Positions 20,165 to 26,740 of a DNA stretch of 64,000 bases are shown one piece after another. The position numbers were made by a program, and so were the translations under genes. Below the pieces are notes generated by a model. It worked only from the letters and a program-made list of their open reading frames with translations. It did not search any database and had not been told where the DNA came from. The stretch lies in the NCBI RefSeq assembly GCF_003611275.1, contig NZ_CP020694.1, positions 310,001 through 374,000 on the forward strand, read 5' to 3'. Positions within the stretch are counted from its first letter, which is position 1; each line of letters starts with the position of its first letter. The DNA comes from Sulfitobacter sp. D7. Lineage in GTDB: Bacteria; Pseudomonadota; Alphaproteobacteria; Rhodobacterales; Rhodobacteraceae.

Positions 20165-21616
20165 ATGCAGATGCCAACACCCGACGCCGGGATCATTGCG
20201 CGCAAGGCGCGTGTCGTTGCACGGCTGCGCGCGGCCCTGCCAGAGAATACCGTGATCGACGATGTGCATGAGACCCGCGCCTATGAATGCGACGCGCTGA
20301 CCGCCTATAAATGTCCGCCCCTTGCCGTGACCCTGCCTGCCAATACCGAAGAAGTCTCGACCGTTCTGCGCATCTGCCATGAGGAAGGCGTTCCGGTCGT
20401 GCCGCGCGGGTCGGGCACCTCGCTCGCAGGGGGCGCGCTGCCGACGGCGGATAGTGTGGTGCTGGGTGTGGCACGGATGGCCGAGGTGCTTGAGGTCGAT
20501 TATGACAACCGCCTGATGCGGGTGCAGACCGGGCGCACCAATCTCAGCGTGACCGGCGCGGTAGAGGAGGATGGCTTCTTCTACGCGCCAGACCCTTCCA
20601 GCCAGTTGGCCTGCGCCATCGCGGGCAATATCGCGATGAATTCAGGCGGGGCGCATTGTCTGAAATACGGGGTCACCACGAACAACCTGCTGGGCGTCAC
20701 GATGGTGATGATGGATGGCGACGTGGTTGAAATCGGTGGGGGCTATATGGATGCAGGCGGGCTGGACCTTCTGGGGCTGGTCTGCGGCTCCGAAGGTCAG
20801 CTGGGCGTGGTGACAGAGGCAACGCTGCGGATTCTGCCCAAGCCCGAAGGCGCGCGGCCCGTGCTGATGGGCTTTGACGATAACGCCGTGGCGGGGGCCT
20901 GTGTCAGCGACATCATCAAGGCCGGGGTGCTGCCGGTGGCGATCGAATTCATGGACCGCCCCTGTATCGAGGCAACGGAGGCTTTCGCCCATGCAGGCTA
21001 CCCGATGTGCGAGGCGCTGCTGATCGTCGAGGTCGAAGGCTCCGACGCCGAGATCGATCACCAGCTTGCCCTGATCACCGAGATCGCCCGCCGCCACAAC
21101 CCGGTGGAACTGCGCGAAAGCACCAGCGCCGAAGAAAGCGCGGCGATCTGGCTGGGGCGCAAATCGGCCTTCGGTGCGATGGGGCAGATCAACGACTACA
21201 TGTGTCTGGATGGCACGATCCCGGTGAACGAGCTGCCGATGGTGCTACGGCGCATTGGCGAGATGTCGGACAGCTATGGCCTTAAAGTCGGCAACGTCTT
21301 TCACGCAGGCGACGGCAATATGCACCCGCTGATTCTGTTTGATGCCAACAAACCCGGCGATCTGGAAAAATGCGAAGCCTTCGGCGCGGATATCCTGCGG
21401 CTTTGTGTTGAGGCGGGCGGCTGTCTGACCGGAGAGCATGGCGTCGGCATCGAAAAGCGCGATCTGATGCATGTGCAATATGCCCCGGCGGATCTGGAGG
21501 CGCAGTTGGCTGTGAAAGACGTGTTTGATCCGGCGTGGCTGTTGAACCCGGCCAAGGTCTTTCCTTTGGATGTCACGGAAGGGCGGCGCGGCAGCGGCGC
21601 ATCGGTGGCCGCGTGA
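20165..21616 (+). CDS. glcD: Glycolate oxidase FAD-binding subunit GlcD
   Basis: A 483-residue FAD-linked oxidase (PCMH-type FAD fold plus C-terminal cap). The FAD-binding loop is VVPRGSGTSLAGGA, followed by SSQLACAIAGNIAMNSGGAHCLKYG and LVCGSEGQLGVVTEATL; the C-terminal metal/substrate region is GNVFHAGDGNMHPLI and GEHGVGIEKR. It oxidises glycolate to glyoxylate in complex with GlcE and GlcF, passing electrons to the membrane. A strong GAGGAGG site precedes ATG 20165. Its stop overlaps glcE (GTGA). Members acting on D-lactate are similar, but the glcE/glcF context favours glycolate. Confidence 0.94.
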   Translation: MQMPTPDAGIIARKARVVARLRAALPENTVIDDVHETRAYECDALTAYKCPPLAVTLPANTEEVSTVLRICHEEGVPVVPRGSGTSLAGGALPTADSVVLGVARMAEVLEVDYDNRLMRVQTGRTNLSVTGAVEEDGFFYAPDPSSQLACAIAGNIAMNSGGAHCLKYGVTTNNLLGVTMVMMDGDVVEIGGGYMDAGGLDLLGLVCGSEGQLGVVTEATLRILPKPEGARPVLMGFDDNAVAGACVSDIIKAGVLPVAIEFMDRPCIEATEAFAHAGYPMCEALLIVEVEGSDAEIDHQLALITEIARRHNPVELRESTSAEESAAIWLGRKSAFGAMGQINDYMCLDGTIPVNELPMVLRRIGEMSDSYGLKVGNVFHAGDGNMHPLILFDANKPGDLEKCEAFGADILRLCVEAGGCLTGEHGVGIEKRDLMHVQYAPADLEAQLAVKDVFDPAWLLNPAKVFPLDVTEGRRGSGASVAA

Positions 21617-22731
21617 CGGTAACGACTGAAGCAGAAGTGGTCGAGGCGATCCGATCCGCGCAGGCGCCCTTGTCCCTGCGGGGTGGCAATACGCGCGGCA
21701 TGGCCGGGCCGGGGGCGGACCTGTCGCTTGCCGGATTGCGGGGCATCAGCCTCTATGAGCCGGGCGCGCTGACGCTGGTGGCGCAGGCGGGGACGCCAGT
21801 CTCCGAGATTGAGACGACATTGGCCGCCGAAGGGCAGCGGCTGGCCTTTGAACCGATGGACCACCGCGCGCTTATGGGCCGCAGCGGCACGCCGACCATC
21901 GGCGGGATCTTTGCGGCCAACGTAAGCGGCCCGCGGCGGCTTGCCATCGGCGCAGCGCGGGATTTCCTTCTGGGCGTGCGCTTTGTCGATGGGCAGGGGA
22001 GCGTTATCAAAAACGGGGGCCGGGTGATGAAGAACGTCACCGGCTATGATCTGGTCAAGCTGATGGCCGGGTCGCGCGGAACCTTGGGGGCCGTGACCGA
22101 GGTGTCGCTAAAGGTGCTGCCCACCCCGGAAACCAGCGCAACGCTCGTGCTTTCGGGGCTGGACGACGCCGCTGCCATCGCCGCCATGGCGCTGGCCATG
22201 CGCAGCCCCTTTGAGGTTACCGGCGCGGCACATGATCCGGCGCAGGGGCGGTCGTTTCTGCGGTTGGAGGGGTTTGAGACCTCGGTCTCCTACCGGACGG
22301 GGCGGCTGAAGGATTTGCTGGCCGCAACGGGGGCCGAGCTTGAGGTGCTGGACGCAGAGCCCTCCGCGACCCTCTGGCGCGATTTGCGCGATGTTGCGGC
22401 CTTTCATGGGGCGGCGGGGGATGTCTGGCGGGTGCACTGCCGCCCGACCGAGGCCCCCGCGCTGGCGGCAAAAGCCGGGGCCGAGGCACATCTTTATGAC
22501 TGGGCCGGGGGGCTGATCTGGCTGCGCATGGCGCCCGGCACCGACCTGCGCGCGCGGTTGGGGCGGTATGACGGTCACGCGACCCTATTGCGGGCCGAAA
22601 GCGCGGCGCAGACTCTGCTGCCCCGGCAGGAACCCGAAGCGCCGGGCGTGGCGCGGTTGACGGCGGGGCTGAGGGCCAAGTTCGACCCGCGCGGCATCTT
22701 CAACGCCGAAGCCTTGGCGCTGACCCCATGA
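21613..22731 (+). CDS. glcE: Glycolate oxidase subunit GlcE
   Basis: A 372-residue second FAD-binding subunit, shorter than GlcD. It has LSLRGGNTRGMAGPGADLSL, RSGTPTIGGIFAANVSGPRR, and the diagnostic VIKNGGRVMKNVTGYDLVKLMAGSRGTLG. The GTG start at 21613 overlaps the glcD stop by four bases, so translation is coupled. It is followed by a small membrane gene whose ATG overlaps its TGA, and then by glcF. GlcE is required for glycolate oxidase activity in known systems. Confidence 0.93.
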   Translation: MTVTTEAEVVEAIRSAQAPLSLRGGNTRGMAGPGADLSLAGLRGISLYEPGALTLVAQAGTPVSEIETTLAAEGQRLAFEPMDHRALMGRSGTPTIGGIFAANVSGPRRLAIGAARDFLLGVRFVDGQGSVIKNGGRVMKNVTGYDLVKLMAGSRGTLGAVTEVSLKVLPTPETSATLVLSGLDDAAAIAAMALAMRSPFEVTGAAHDPAQGRSFLRLEGFETSVSYRTGRLKDLLAATGAELEVLDAEPSATLWRDLRDVAAFHGAAGDVWRVHCRPTEAPALAAKAGAEAHLYDWAGGLIWLRMAPGTDLRARLGRYDGHATLLRAESAAQTLLPRQEPEAPGVARLTAGLRAKFDPRGIFNAEALALTP

Positions 22732-23096
22732 CATTGATGCTGGTCTTTCTCATCGTTTTTCTGATCGGCCCGTTTCTGTTTAAGGCGTTGATCGCCGTGC
22801 CGCCTTCCCTGCGGGCCGTCCGCACCTTGGGGGCGATGGTCTTGGCCGCCTTTTTATTCGCCACCGGCCTGCGTTATGGACTGCTGCGCTATTGGAGCGA
22901 CAGCCCGTGGTTGCTGGGGGTCATCGCCCTCACCCTCTGGGCCGCTTGGATCGGGGTGATCGCGCTGGTGGTCCAAGCACTGCGCCGCGCCGATCCGCGC
23001 CCCGCCATGCGCCGGTGGAGCGGGGTTTTGGGGGCCGTAGGCACGACGGTTCCTTGGTTCGGCCTTGTCCTCGCCAATCTGATGCGCAGCACATAG
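22728..23096 (+). CDS. Four-helix membrane protein inserted between glcE and glcF
   Basis: A 122-residue protein with about four hydrophobic segments (residues ~1-22, 34-50, 62-86 and 100-118) joined by short basic loops such as RRADPRPAMRRW. No domain is recognised. Its ATG overlaps the glcE stop (ATGA) and glcF begins 13 bases after its end, so it is firmly part of the glycolate oxidase transcript. A role in anchoring the GlcDEF complex or passing electrons to the membrane is a reasonable inference, not shown by the sequence. Confidence 0.82.
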   Translation: MTLMLVFLIVFLIGPFLFKALIAVPPSLRAVRTLGAMVLAAFLFATGLRYGLLRYWSDSPWLLGVIALTLWAAWIGVIALVVQALRRADPRPAMRRWSGVLGAVGTTVPWFGLVLANLMRST

Positions 23097-23109
23097 TAAC
23101 GGAGCATCC

Positions 23110-24438
23110 ATGCAAACCACCTTTACCCCCGAGCAATTGCAGGATCCTGACACGCAGCGCAGCAACGACATTCTGCGCGCCTGTGTGCACTGCGGTTTCT
23201 GCACGGCGACCTGCCCGACCTATCAGGTCTTGGGCGATGAGTTGGACAGCCCGCGCGGGCGTATTTACCTGATCAAGGACATGCTTGAGAATGACCGTGA
23301 TCCTGACCCAAAGACGGTCCAGCACATCGACCGCTGCCTGTCCTGCCTTGCCTGTATGACGACCTGCCCCTCGGGCGTGCATTACATGCATCTGGTCGAT
23401 CACGCCCGCAGCTATATCGAGGAACGGTATAAACGGCCCCTAGGCGAACGCGCGCTGCGCTGGATGCTGGCGCGGATCCTGCCCTATCCGACACGCTTTC
23501 GACTGGCGCTATTGGGGGCCAAGATCGGGCGGCCTTTCGCGCGGCTGATGCCCGACGCCCGGCTGCGCGCAATGCTTGAGATGGCGCCAAAAACGATCCC
23601 TCCGGTCAGCCGCAATGACGATCCGCAAAGCTTCCCGGCAAAGGGCAAACCGCTGCGGCGTGTGGCCCTGATGACCGGCTGCGCGCAAAAGGCCCTGAAC
23701 ACCGATATTAATGACGCCACGATCCGGTTACTGACCCGCGCGGGTTGCGAGGTGGTGGTGGCCGAAGGCGCGGGCTGTTGCGGCGCGCTGACCCATCACA
23801 TGGGCAAGACCGATGAAAGCCACGCCCATGCCGCACGCAATATCCGGGCATGGCGTGCTGAGATGGATGGCGAGGGGCTGGATGCCATCGTGATCAACAC
23901 CTCGGGCTGCGGCACCACGGTCAAGGACTACGGCCATATGTTCCGCAATGACCCGCTGGCAGAGGATGCCGCGCGGGTCTCGGCCTTGGCAAAGGATGTG
24001 ACGGAGCTGCTCGCGGAGTTGGACCTGCCCTTTGTCGAACCGGCTGAGCAGGGCATGGTCGTCGCCTATCACGCGGCCTGTTCGCTGCAACATGGGCAAC
24101 AGATCAAGGCCACGCCGAAGACGCTGCTAAAACAGGCGGGATTTACGGTGGTAGAACCGGCGGACAGTCACCTCTGCTGCGGCTCGGCGGGCACCTATAA
24201 CCTGATGCAGCCCGAGATTTCGGCAAAGCTGAAAGAACGCAAGATCAAGACGCTAGAGGCGAAATCCCCAGACGTCATCGCGGCGGGCAACATCGGCTGC
24301 ATGATGCAGATCGGATCGGGCACCGGGGTGCCTGTGGTGCATAGCGTCGAACTGCTCGATTGGGCCTGCGGTGGGCCAAAACCGCCCGCGCTCAGCCGTG
24401 ATCCCGATGCGCCCGCGCAGGTGCCGCGTTTGCGTTAA
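23110..24438 (+). CDS. glcF: Glycolate oxidase iron-sulfur subunit GlcF
   Basis: A 442-residue subunit with two [4Fe-4S] ferredoxin motifs, Cys25/28/31/35 (CVHCGFCTATCPTY) and Cys76/79/82/86 (CLSCLACMTTCPSG), and two CCG domains, seen as GAGCCGALTHHMG and HLCCGSAGTYNLM, which bind further cofactor in this family. It carries electrons from the GlcD/GlcE flavins to the respiratory chain at the inner membrane. Length and domain order are normal. It closes the glc operon; a protease gene starts 49 bases later. Confidence 0.95.
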   Translation: MQTTFTPEQLQDPDTQRSNDILRACVHCGFCTATCPTYQVLGDELDSPRGRIYLIKDMLENDRDPDPKTVQHIDRCLSCLACMTTCPSGVHYMHLVDHARSYIEERYKRPLGERALRWMLARILPYPTRFRLALLGAKIGRPFARLMPDARLRAMLEMAPKTIPPVSRNDDPQSFPAKGKPLRRVALMTGCAQKALNTDINDATIRLLTRAGCEVVVAEGAGCCGALTHHMGKTDESHAHAARNIRAWRAEMDGEGLDAIVINTSGCGTTVKDYGHMFRNDPLAEDAARVSALAKDVTELLAELDLPFVEPAEQGMVVAYHAACSLQHGQQIKATPKTLLKQAGFTVVEPADSHLCCGSAGTYNLMQPEISAKLKERKIKTLEAKSPDVIAAGNIGCMMQIGSGTGVPVVHSVELLDWACGGPKPPALSRDPDAPAQVPRLR

Positions 24439-24487
24439 GCCTACGCCGTATTTTCGCCGCAACTCCCCTATATCCGCCAAAGTGGAC

Positions 24488-25318
24488 ATGGTTTTGAGGT
24501 GCATTTTGCGACAATTGTTGGCGGCTATTCTCGGCGTATTTACCCTCGCCACGGCGGCGCTGGCCCAAGACAGCGCGCTCAAGGCGCTCGACAACGGTGT
24601 GGACGCCGCCGCTTGGGAGGCCGTGGGCCGTCTCGACATCGGCGGCACCGGGTTTTGCACCGGCACGTTGATCGCTCCGCGTCTGGTGCTGACCGCCGCG
24701 CATTGCCTGTTTGACCGCGAAACCAAGGCCCGGATCGACCATGGCGAGGTGCAATTCCTTGCCGGTTGGCGCAATGGCCGCGCCGGTGCCTACCGCGATA
24801 TCCGCCGCGCCGTGGTGCACCCCGACTACGTCTATGATGGTGAGGTCTCCTCGGGCCGGGTGCGCAACGATCTGGCGCTCTTGGAACTCTCCCGCCCCAT
24901 CCGCAACACGACGATCCGGCCCTTTGGCACCGCCGCGCGCCCCCGTCCCGGCGACAGCGTGGGCGTGGTCAGCTATGCCCGCGACCGGGCCGAGGCGCCG
25001 TCCCTGCAAGAGGTCTGCAAGGTGCTGGCCCAGCAGGAAGGGGTTCTGGTGACCTCCTGCGCGGTCGATTTCGGCTCCAGCGGCGCGCCGATCTTTAGCA
25101 TTGTCGCAGGTGAGGCGCATATCGTCTCAGTCGTTTCGGCCAAGGCCGAGGTCGAGGGCACGCAGGTATCCCTTGGCACCGCTCTGGGCGCGCCCTTGGC
25201 GTTGCTGCAAGCGGAACTGGTGGCGGGCAAAGGTGTGTTTCTGGATTCCAACCCGGCAGGCAAACGCATCCGGGTCGGAGAAGAGCGTGGCACCGGGGCG
25301 AAATTCATCCGCCCGTAA
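24488..25318 (+). CDS. Trypsin-like serine protease, secreted
   Basis: A 276-residue exported S1-family protease. A signal peptide ends near residue 27 (TAALAQ). The triad is visible as His72 (LTAAHC), Asp128 (NDLALLEL) and Ser198 (DFGSSGAP, in place of the usual GDSGGP). The variation around the serine (GSSGA) is common in bacterial V8/trypsin-like proteins. Cysteine pairs 57/73 and 177/191 could form disulfides. ATG 24488 is taken as start; a TTG closer to the signal peptide is possible. Substrate unknown. Confidence 0.85.
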   Translation: MVLRCILRQLLAAILGVFTLATAALAQDSALKALDNGVDAAAWEAVGRLDIGGTGFCTGTLIAPRLVLTAAHCLFDRETKARIDHGEVQFLAGWRNGRAGAYRDIRRAVVHPDYVYDGEVSSGRVRNDLALLELSRPIRNTTIRPFGTAARPRPGDSVGVVSYARDRAEAPSLQEVCKVLAQQEGVLVTSCAVDFGSSGAPIFSIVAGEAHIVSVVSAKAEVEGTQVSLGTALGAPLALLQAELVAGKGVFLDSNPAGKRIRVGEERGTGAKFIRP

Positions 25319-25333: not shown

Positions 25334-25362
25334 CTTGAAAGCGCGCAAAACCCTTCCCACAT
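25334..25362 (+). promoter_or_regulatory. RpoH-like heat shock promoter of hsp20
   Basis: CTTGAAA at 25334-25340 and CCCACAT at 25356-25362, spaced by 15 bases, resemble the sigma-32 -35 (CTTGAAA) and -10 (CCCCATnT) elements. Transcription would begin close to 25370, exactly where the first hairpin of the leader starts. Confidence 0.55.
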
Positions 25363-25369
25363 GAGCTTT

Positions 25370-25467
25370 GCCGAAGTGCCTCTATAGGGCTTCGGCGCTT
25401 GAAAAACCGGGTCTGTCCAATGGTGGAAGGCCCGATATGTCAATCGCTCACTGATGAGGATGAACAC
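25370..25467 (+). promoter_or_regulatory. ROSE-like RNA thermometer in the hsp20 leader
   Basis: The leader folds into three consecutive hairpins. Hairpin 1: GCCGAAG/CTTCGGC (25370-25396). Hairpin 2: CGGGUCU-g-UCCA with UGGA-AGGCCCG (25408-25434), 11 pairs with one bulge. Hairpin 3: UCGCU at 25444-25448 pairs with the Shine-Dalgarno AGGA at 25457-25460, leaving one bulged G, extended by CA/UG and closed by a CUGA loop. The UYGCU:AGGA pairing is the hallmark of ROSE elements, which hide the ribosome site of small heat shock genes at low temperature. The SD is seven bases before the ATG. Confidence 0.68.
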
Positions 25468-25938
25468 ATGCGTAGTTTTGATTTCGCACCCCTTTACCGC
25501 TCCAGCGTTGGTTTTGACCAGATCGCCAACATGATGGACCGGGTTCTGACAAATGATGGGGCCACCCCCAGCTATCCCCCGTATAATATCGAAAAGCTTG
25601 ATAACGATGCCTACCGCATCTCGATCGCCGTGGCTGGTTTCTCCGACAGCGACCTGAGCGTCGAAGTCCGTGAGAAGGCGCTGATCGTTTCGGCCCGCAA
25701 GGCTGATGAGGATGAGGCCAAGTCCTACCTGCACCGTGGCATCGCCACCCGCGCCTTTGAACGCCGCTTCCATTTGGCGGACCACGTTCAGGTGATCGGC
25801 GCGGCCCATGCCAACGGCATGCTGCATATCGAGCTTGAGCGTCAGGTGCCTGAGGCCCTGAAACCACGTCAGATCGCCATCTCTTCCGAGGTGAAGTCGA
25901 TCGACAAGGACGTGGTTGACGCCAAATCCGTGAACTAA
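25468..25938 (+). CDS. Small heat shock protein, Hsp20/IbpA family
   Basis: A 156-residue alpha-crystallin-type chaperone that holds unfolding proteins during heat stress. The core spans about residues 30-130: YPPYNIEKLDNDAYRISIAVAGF, the second strand with LIVSARK, RGIATRAFERRFHLADHVQV and GMLHIELERQVPE. The N-terminal MRSFDFAPLYRSSVGFD is the typical IbpA-like start. ATG 25468 is preceded by AGGA, which sits inside a ROSE-like hairpin, so control by temperature at both transcription and translation is likely. A strong terminator follows. Confidence 0.93.
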   Translation: MRSFDFAPLYRSSVGFDQIANMMDRVLTNDGATPSYPPYNIEKLDNDAYRISIAVAGFSDSDLSVEVREKALIVSARKADEDEAKSYLHRGIATRAFERRFHLADHVQVIGAAHANGMLHIELERQVPEALKPRQIAISSEVKSIDKDVVDAKSVN

Positions 25939-25963
25939 GCACGGTTCCATGCCGAGCTTTATG

Positions 25964-25992
25964 AAGGCCCGCTATCCAGCGGGCCTTTTTTT
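25964..25992 (+). terminator. hsp20 intrinsic terminator
   Basis: A 10-bp stem AAGGCCCGCT/AGCGGGCCTT with a 4-base loop is followed by an uninterrupted T run to 25992. This is a textbook Rho-independent terminator 25 bases after the hsp20 stop. Confidence 0.9.
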
Positions 25993-26185
25993 GTTGGCAA
26001 CGGCGCTTGAGGGGGCCCCTTCGTGGGAGAATATCTGCCGAAGGTGGGGCGCGAAAACGGCGGCTTTCTGCTGCGCAGCAGGGCGGGGGAAACCATGCGA
26101 AAGCTGTCGGGTTGAGTGGGGGACCGGGCAGGCGTGCTCGGGCAACAGCGTGCAGAGTACCGCACGCGCAATGAAAGGAAGAACC

Positions 26186-26740
26186 ATGACTAACTATGCA
26201 AATTCCCTACGCAAGCTGACCCTGACCACGGCTGTCACGGCGCTTTTGGCCGCCCCGATTGCTGCACAGGCTCAGACCGCCGATGTCGGCGTTGGCGCTG
26301 ATGTGAATGCCGAAGCAAACGCCGGTGTAGGCGCCGATATGGCCGACACTGCGACCGGTGCTGATGTCGCGGCGGGCGCCGATAGCGCCATCTCGGCCGA
26401 CACCGATCTGAACGTCGAAGACCGGGTCGCTGAGACCATGCCGAGCGAGAGCGACACGGATGTCGATATCGCGCTGGATGGCAGCACCGTGGCCGTCGCG
26501 TCGGACGACACTGTCATTGGCACGATTTCCAATGCGGAACCACAGGCCGATGGCTCTGTGCGCTATTCCATCGATCTGGCCAATGATTTCGCTGCCGATA
26601 GCGACCGCGCAGTCGTGCAGATCGACCAAGATGTTGACGCCGAAGGCCAACTTGTCATCGGCATGACAGGCGAAGAATTCGCCGCAGCCCTGACCCAGCA
26701 AGTGAATGCGGGCAGCGCGGCGCAGACCCGGACCAACTAA
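26186..26740 (+). CDS. Acidic secreted protein of unknown function
   Basis: A 184-residue protein with a signal peptide cleaved after AAPIAAQA (near residue 30). The mature part is strongly acidic and rich in Ala, Asp and Val, with irregular repeats of the type GADV/GADMA/GADSA between about residues 35 and 75, then a more ordered region (SDDTVIGTISNAEPQADG, YSIDLANDF) ending in a polar tail. No domain is recognised. A GGAAG ribosome site precedes ATG 26186. It lies between the hsp20 terminator and its own terminator, so it is transcribed alone. Possibly envelope-associated or calcium-binding, but this is only a guess from composition. Confidence 0.75.
   Translation: MTNYANSLRKLTLTTAVTALLAAPIAAQAQTADVGVGADVNAEANAGVGADMADTATGADVAAGADSAISADTDLNVEDRVAETMPSESDTDVDIALDGSTVAVASDDTVIGTISNAEPQADGSVRYSIDLANDFAADSDRAVVQIDQDVDAEGQLVIGMTGEEFAAALTQQVNAGSAAQTRTN

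Follow-up and report, generated by a model that had tools for sequence, protein, structure and literature searches.

A probable ROSE-type RNA thermometer in the hsp20 leader of Sulfitobacter sp. D7 and its relatives in Rhodobacteraceae

Genomic context of hsp20

The 64,000-nt stretch of the Sulfitobacter sp. D7 genome that was analyzed here (the window; contig NZ_CP020694.1, positions 310,001 to 374,000) harbors a small heat-shock gene of the hsp20/ibpA type, which is preceded by a heat-shock-type promoter and a leader with three hairpins (Table 1). The top NCBIfam match of its product is IbpA (PRK10743), with 156.6 bits (E 3.8e-46) where the equivalog cut-off is 212, and an identity of 99% at the Hsp20 protein marks Sulfitobacter dubius as close to the genome of the window. 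The likely terminator downstream of hsp20 suggests a single-gene transcript. On the 3' side follows an ORF of 210 aa (26108-26740) that is rich in Ala, Asp and Val and had no match in the NCBIfam search. The upstream region (21535-25318) contains glycolate oxidase genes, with glcF over its cut-off and a glcE-like gene just below its own; between these genes and the leader, a trypsin-like protein is encoded (24371-25318) that shows an LTAAHC motif by eye and has no NCBIfam match. At gathering thresholds, the Rfam scan of the window returned only two tRNAs. Below threshold, the interval 25867-26001 gave matches to snoTBR5, Trp_leader, Leu_leader, RyhB, suhB and a toxic sRNA, and another match was obtained at 24929; these were regarded as chance matches to coding sequence and the terminator.

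Table 1. Features of the hsp20 locus, in the numbering of the window.
Feature	Position	Strand	Basis or remark
-35 element CTTGAAA, RpoH-type promoter	25334-25340	+	sequence; conserved phasing
-10 element CCCACAT	25356-25362	+	A-12 and T-9 in R. sphaeroides RpoH numbering (as given in PMC3441632)
Predicted transcription start, foot of hairpin 1	25370-25371	+	promoter spacing
Hairpin 1, 8+3 bp, unpaired G25378	25370-25396	+	fold at 37 °C; double changes in 9 of 11 pairs
Hairpin 2, 7+4 bp, unpaired G25415	25408-25434	+	fold; double changes in 10 of 11 pairs
Hairpin 3, presumed thermosensor, AUC-G-CUC pairing with GAG-GAU, unpaired G25446	25443-25461	+	fold; covariation
Shine-Dalgarno sequence AGGA inside the stem of hairpin 3	25457-25460	+	sequence; 7 nt before ATG
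hsp20 (ibpA-type small heat-shock gene), 156 aa	25468-25938	+	NCBIfam match; start codon ATG at 25468
Likely intrinsic terminator, GGCCCGC-TATCCA-GCGGGCC and seven T	25966-25992	+	read from the sequence

The promoter combines TTG at -36 to -34 with A-12, T-9 and a suitable spacing of 15 nt between CTTGAAA and CCCACAT, which are the sequence characteristics of an RpoH promoter, and the R. sphaeroides RpoH numbering places +1 at about 25371. It fits the RpoHI logo of this species except for position -11, which is C here; in a mutant RpoHI promoter of R. sphaeroides, the change from T to C at -11 is reported to lower activity (PMC3441632). The phasing of promoter and leader was compared in 52 loci, namely, the window and 51 named relatives, taking in each locus the TTGA closest to 35 nt before hairpin 1. 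In all 52 loci, this tetranucleotide is located 32-36 nt ahead of the first paired base of hairpin 1, and the base just before it is C in 49 of them. A preliminary description of this DNA had placed the start of transcription at the first hairpin on the basis of the same two elements, which agrees with the start predicted here. The genome encodes two rpoH-like genes that score 368 bits (over the cut-off of 323.1) and 266.7 bits (under it). Judging from validated relatives, transcription of hsp20 is probably RpoH-dependent.

Structure of the leader and masking of the Shine-Dalgarno sequence

Provided that transcription starts at 25370, the leader comprises 98 nt (25370-25467). ROSE-like elements are characterized by a U(U/C)GCU motif and two to four hairpins, according to the descriptions in PMC3669281, PMC4166951 and PMC10474464. 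With three hairpins in 98 nt, counted from the predicted start of the UTR, the leader lies within the size range of the class (two to four hairpins, 60 to more than 100 nt), and it directly precedes a small heat-shock gene, as its members do. UCGCU, which contains the unpaired G of hairpin 3, imperfectly masks AGGA. The segment 25370-25470 folds with a minimum free energy (MFE) of -39.6 kcal/mol, compared to a mean of -27.1 for shuffled sequences (z = -3.75), and none of the 200 shuffles was as low. A pattern derived from hairpin 3 of the window and the start codon, with up to two mismatches allowed, had its own site as sole match at a chance expectation of 0.01.

The isolated hairpins differ in stability, with -14.5, -14.7 and -3.6 kcal/mol at 37 °C for hairpins 1, 2 and 3. 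The third is about as weak as hairpin 3 of E. coli ibpA alone (-4.1 kcal/mol at 37 °C). Without its unpaired G it would reach -7.4 kcal/mol, so that the G costs 3.8 kcal/mol and, in the model, sets the lability of hairpin 3. When the leaders are folded from the start of hairpin 1 up to the ATG, 50 of the 52 at 25 °C and 49 at 37 °C contain the core of hairpin 3 in their MFE structure; longer stretches gave other MFE structures in some relatives. The extent of masking was compared with 42 control ORFs of the window, whose Shine-Dalgarno sequences are unpaired to a median of 27%. At 20 °C the predicted value for hsp20 is 12%, and eight of the 42 controls are masked equally or better, five of them with less than 5% unpaired. 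The predicted masking in this one leader is thus only mildly unusual and weak evidence by itself.

Folding at 20-45 °C had been proposed in the preliminary description as a check on melting, and nearest-neighbor calculations predict no opening of the window leader (12% unpaired at 20 °C, 8% at 45 °C). The medians of the 51 relatives hardly change over the same range (16% to 20%), and in 16 of them the unpaired fraction of the Shine-Dalgarno sequence amounts to 30% or more even at 20 °C (112-nt stretches). The same procedure applied to the validated thermometer of E. coli ibpA yields a decrease from 46% to 30%, and since this control likewise shows no opening, the temperature folding is without power to decide about melting.

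Conservation and covariation among relatives

The core comparison set consists of the window and the 51 named relatives, to which the leader of E. coli ibpA was added as the 53rd. TTGA, TCGCT and AGGA are each found at the expected place in all 52 leaders of the core set. Pairing and double changes were determined in three alignments. The first, a plain MAFFT alignment of 19 leaders that is not structure-fitted, was tested against a structure written from the window's own fold: 97.0% of the cells pair, compared to 36-53% in slid controls, and 11 of the 28 pairs show double changes. In the alignment of 53 leaders, 94.8% of the cells pair (slid controls 39-55%) and 21 of the 28 pairs show compensatory double changes; the corresponding values for 100 wider matches are 91.0%, 44-52% and 25 of 28. 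The latter two alignments were fitted to the structure and hence lean toward pairing, and shuffle controls ignore kinship. Compensatory changes in related genomes, which the preliminary description had called for, are accordingly present in each of the three sets, and its picture of three consecutive hairpins in a 98-base leader, the last of them pairing UCGCU with AGGA around one bulged G, is supported by the fold, the covariation and the motif shared by 52 of 52 leaders.

All cells of hairpin 3 pair in the 53 leaders, four of its six pairs never vary in this set and two show double changes, which increases to four of six among the 100 wider matches. G-U pairs are kept as well (at single pairs, UG in 33 and GU in 14 sequences of the 53 leaders). 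RNAalifold, applied to an unfitted alignment of 51 of the 52 leaders (omitting L075), predicted hairpins 1 and 3 only, with 11 pairs and double changes in four of them; the loss of hairpin 2 in this 51-row alignment is attributed to gaps, which displace it in the more distant sequences. It is the comparative evidence, and not the masking of a single Shine-Dalgarno sequence, that shows the leader to be more than a product of chance.

Distribution in Rhodobacteraceae and relation to Rfam families

A covariance model (model 1) was built from 19 Sulfitobacter-type leaders, that is, the window and 18 relatives. Among 54 sources searched, it recovers these 19 leaders and those of the 33 other relatives, which were not used in building it, and its one miss is the second hsp20 gene of the window's own genome. 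The model also locates the leader of E. coli ibpA correctly, with 19.8 bits (E 0.018), a likeness that points to common descent.

A second model (R2) was built from the 53 leaders and matches 138 of 149 genomes of the family, taken as Rhodobacteraceae from its named relatives, and 45 of 190 genomes of the class; some of the searched genomes may represent species whose leaders had gone into R2. The window's own genome has one significant match. We opened 58 of the 140 matches in the family (30 from the top and 28 from the bottom of the ranking) as well as all 49 in the class; the two sets share two and amount to 105 distinct places. An hsp20 ORF is present in the locus in 98 cases, one match precedes dnaK and six weak ones lie elsewhere. 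In 99 realigned loci (96 of the 98 and three others), the end of the match coincides with the start of hsp20 without exception; one further weak match (L120) does not end there. The six weak matches without hsp20 (E 0.003-0.08) were taken as chance. Two are located inside ORFs (L169, L171) and three precede no clear start (L185, L187, L189). The sixth is the least certain case, with AUC-G-CUC-AAGA-GAG-GAA before an alcohol-dehydrogenase-like ORF (L190, genome G245; E 0.069). Nine of the 11 family genomes without an R2 match encode some hsp20, only three of them a close one (51-66% identity), and individual searches of these three revealed the element there, too (32.9-38.9 bits).

The preliminary description had proposed a scan with the Rfam ROSE models. 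RF01832 (ROSE_2) has a full-length match in the window that, with 27.3 bits (E 0.0025 for 1.2 kb), stays far below the gathering cut-off of 65, and this cut-off is exceeded in none of 100 genomes of the family. RF00435 (ROSE, gathering cut-off 45 bits) has no match in the window's own genome and none over the cut-off in 61 family genomes; 14 of these 61 have subthreshold matches, and 12 of the 15 matches coincide with sites detected by R2. No Rfam family scored over its cut-off in the 20 of the 51 named loci that were scanned. The leader, for which the ROSE type had been claimed, is nearer to the E. coli-type ROSE_2 than to RF00435. The subthreshold matches of both models and their overlap with R2 suggest that the two Rfam families may belong together. 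The element is part of a ROSE-like thermometer clade left out by the Rfam cut-offs and not a new class. ROSE control of hsp20 gets a comparative footing in Rhodobacteraceae, where both Rfam ROSE models score below their cut-offs in the sampled genomes.

ROSE-like leaders at dnaK

The lead to dnaK was one strong R2 match away from hsp20 (genome G324, E 1.3e-5). The lineage concerned is a single alphaproteobacterial family (f55) with genomes of about 1 Mb (loci L206-L212, L256-L280). R2 gave 15 matches in 40 genomes of f55, seven before dnaK and eight weak ones elsewhere (E 0.012-0.76). A model built from five of these dnaK leaders (R3) matches 33 of the 40 genomes, its five sources included, and weakly two of nine others of the order. 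Loci were fetched for 31 of the 33 matched genomes (32 loci, of which L257 and L212 are one place), and all 31 matches run into the DnaK start; the products of three loci were searched against NCBIfam and all proved to be DnaK. In an alignment fitted to the structure, which leans toward pairing, 94.0% of the cells are paired (slid controls 37-69%) and 18 of the 28 pairs show double changes. The anti-Shine-Dalgarno sequence is mostly UUUGCCU and departs from the strict U(U/C)GCU rule, and we regard the dnaK leaders, from their sequences, as a ROSE-like variant. No Rfam RNA family exceeded its cut-off at the 20 dnaK leaders scanned. All 16 tested f55 genomes also encode hsp20. At its start codon the element was seen in none of the 15 of these genomes assessed by eye and with a loose pattern (the start of L243 is unclear), and the loose-pattern matches at these loci fall within the ORF or well upstream.

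Unpaired guanines and competing explanations

Each of the three hairpins has one unpaired G in its 5' arm (G25378, G25415, G25446), and each of these is invariant in 51 of 51 leaders. This count was taken from the unfitted alignment, because a parse with fixed sizes places many bulges of hairpin 2 and some of hairpin 1 one base off and is ambiguous for hairpin 1 of E. coli. In the wider fitted set, the unpaired bases of hairpins 1, 2 and 3 are G in 99, 95 and 99 of 100 sequences, and in the 31 dnaK leaders in 31, 29 and 31. The two or three pairs right above the G of hairpins 1 and 2 are nearly invariant, and the outer stem varies often, mostly still pairing. The role of the 5' hairpins in ROSE elements has been called not fully understood (PMC3669281), and the three near-invariant guanines provide a testable handle on it.

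One conceivable role is protein recognition. The leader could be a thermometer and at the same time a binding site for translational self-repression by IbpA, of the kind described for E. coli, with the guanines and hairpins 1 and 2 serving to be read by the protein. According to PMC10474464, E. coli IbpA represses its own mRNA via the 5' UTR in a manner that needs R93, and alphaproteobacteria conserve this residue as well as Y34. The equivalent residues in the alignment with the Hsp20 of the window are Y36 and R95, and the matching positions are kept in all 52 proteins (the window and 51 relatives). Furthermore, the guanines of hairpins 1 and 2 are invariant although masking of the Shine-Dalgarno sequence needs neither of them. 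However, R97 is conserved equally (52 of 52), so that chaperone function may explain the conservation of the residues, and the same guanines are present at the dnaK leaders, where self-control by IbpA would make less sense. Their retention at dnaK argues rather for folding or tertiary contacts than for reading by IbpA, and a second function of this kind remains a tentative proposal, to which we give about one chance in three.

The other alternatives do without a thermometer. If the hairpins only protected the mRNA or masked the Shine-Dalgarno sequence statically, heat control would be left to RpoH transcription alone. A hairpin at the 5' end can stabilize mRNA, as discussed for Pseudomonas (PMC3669281), folding predicts no melting at 20-45 °C, and the controls mentioned above document that masking to this degree is not rare. 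All 52 leaders, however, retain a weak hairpin 3 with the ROSE anti-Shine-Dalgarno motif. A static mask would need no conserved unpaired G at a predicted cost of 3.8 kcal/mol, and the relatives in E. coli and Pseudomonas are described as working thermometers (PMC3669281), which leaves this explanation very improbable. It would be extremely surprising if the inverted repeats instead served as the DNA operator of a repressor. The earliest ROSE sequences had at one time been interpreted along these lines (history in PMC4166951), but the repeats of the window lie downstream of the predicted start, the changes among relatives keep RNA pairing including G-U, and the unpaired guanines are on one strand only. 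Practically no weight attaches to the idea that the leader encodes an N-terminal extension or a leader peptide: a TTG-started frame is open from 25399 in the window, but 36 of the 52 leaders have an in-frame stop and the leader lengths are spread over all three frames (27, 13 and 12 of 52).

Taken as a whole, the leader of hsp20 is very probably a ROSE-type RNA thermometer. This is in agreement with the central claim of the preliminary description, a ROSE-type thermometer combined with an RpoH-like promoter, which is the best reading and is supported by the covariation. An RpoH-family sigma factor would start transcription at the foot of hairpin 1. Under cool conditions hairpin 3 would cover the Shine-Dalgarno sequence and keep ribosomes off, with the unpaired G making it the weak point of the leader. 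At heat-shock temperature hairpin 3 would open, the G+C-rich hairpins 1 and 2 would remain folded and the small heat-shock protein would be made.

Relation to known ROSE elements

A ROSE-type leader of hsp20 is of a kind already known, including the Roseobacter clade. By 2005, more than 40 ROSE candidates were on record from alpha- and gammaproteobacteria, according to PMC4166951, and in 2011 ROSE-like motifs were reported upstream of ibpA and hspD in Nautella sp. R11 of the Roseobacter clade (PMC3230580). The suggestion that this control is wider than the rhizobia is therefore true, but not new. Nautella sp. R11 shares the clade and the two kinds of gene with the window's genome, a likeness drawn from the published statement and not from sequence. 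The element of E. coli ibpA (ROSE_2, RF01832) has three hairpins before the same type of gene and was found by a model built from Sulfitobacter-type leaders only; further points of likeness are CCUGUCC...GGAAGG in hairpin 2 and the anti-Shine-Dalgarno sequence CUCGCUG, which pairs with CAGGAG. It differs in its spacers, either G or C can be drawn as the unpaired base of its hairpin 1, and the ROSE_2 score of the window leader is 27.3 bits versus the 65 required. Rhizobial ROSE (RF00435; ROSE1 of B. japonicum hspA) is of the same mechanistic type and shares the anti-Shine-Dalgarno motif, but ROSE1 has a hairpin IV according to PMC3669281, in contrast to the three hairpins of this leader. The short ROSE-like element of Pseudomonas ibpA is described in the same source with U(U/C)GCU, a weak 3' hairpin and a stable 5' hairpin, and differs by its two hairpins in about 62 nt. 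ROSE-like and ROSE-G elements at ABC transporter genes, as presented in PMC11342760 and PMC12857270, resemble the leader in the unpaired G of the stem that masks the Shine-Dalgarno sequence; their target genes are different, they are later than the 2005 candidates, and ROSE-G has two opposed unpaired guanines and CUGCU.

Two aspects go beyond the literature that we found: the near-invariant G in all three hairpins and the same architecture before dnaK in f55. A report of ROSE at dnaK was not found among the open PMC papers listed. We lean toward the view that ROSE, instead of consisting of one bulged hairpin and spacers, is a module used three times over, each with a near-invariant G in the 5' arm, in Rhodobacteraceae and other sampled Alphaproteobacteria, and that the whole device was also recruited to dnaK of f55. 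If this is true, the main Hsp70 of this lineage would be tuned directly by temperature at the level of translation.

The second hsp20 gene of the window's own genome (L079, C1:2817392-2817802, minus strand) is hspD-like and 43% identical to the first, so that the two genes match the ibpA/hspD pair of Nautella sp. R11. Its leader appears to be a two-hairpin ROSE-like element in which GUC-G-CUU masks AAG-GAC, and a CTTG...CCCATATT promoter is recognizable by eye. A single ROSE-like hairpin, UUC-G-CUC-AAU-GAG-GAA, is located just before the ATG of a gene that by eye resembles prolyl-tRNA synthetase (L233/L143, C1:2558379-2558401, minus strand); it may be due to chance, with 12.9 bits in R2 and 20 pattern matches in the genome versus six for the reversed pattern.
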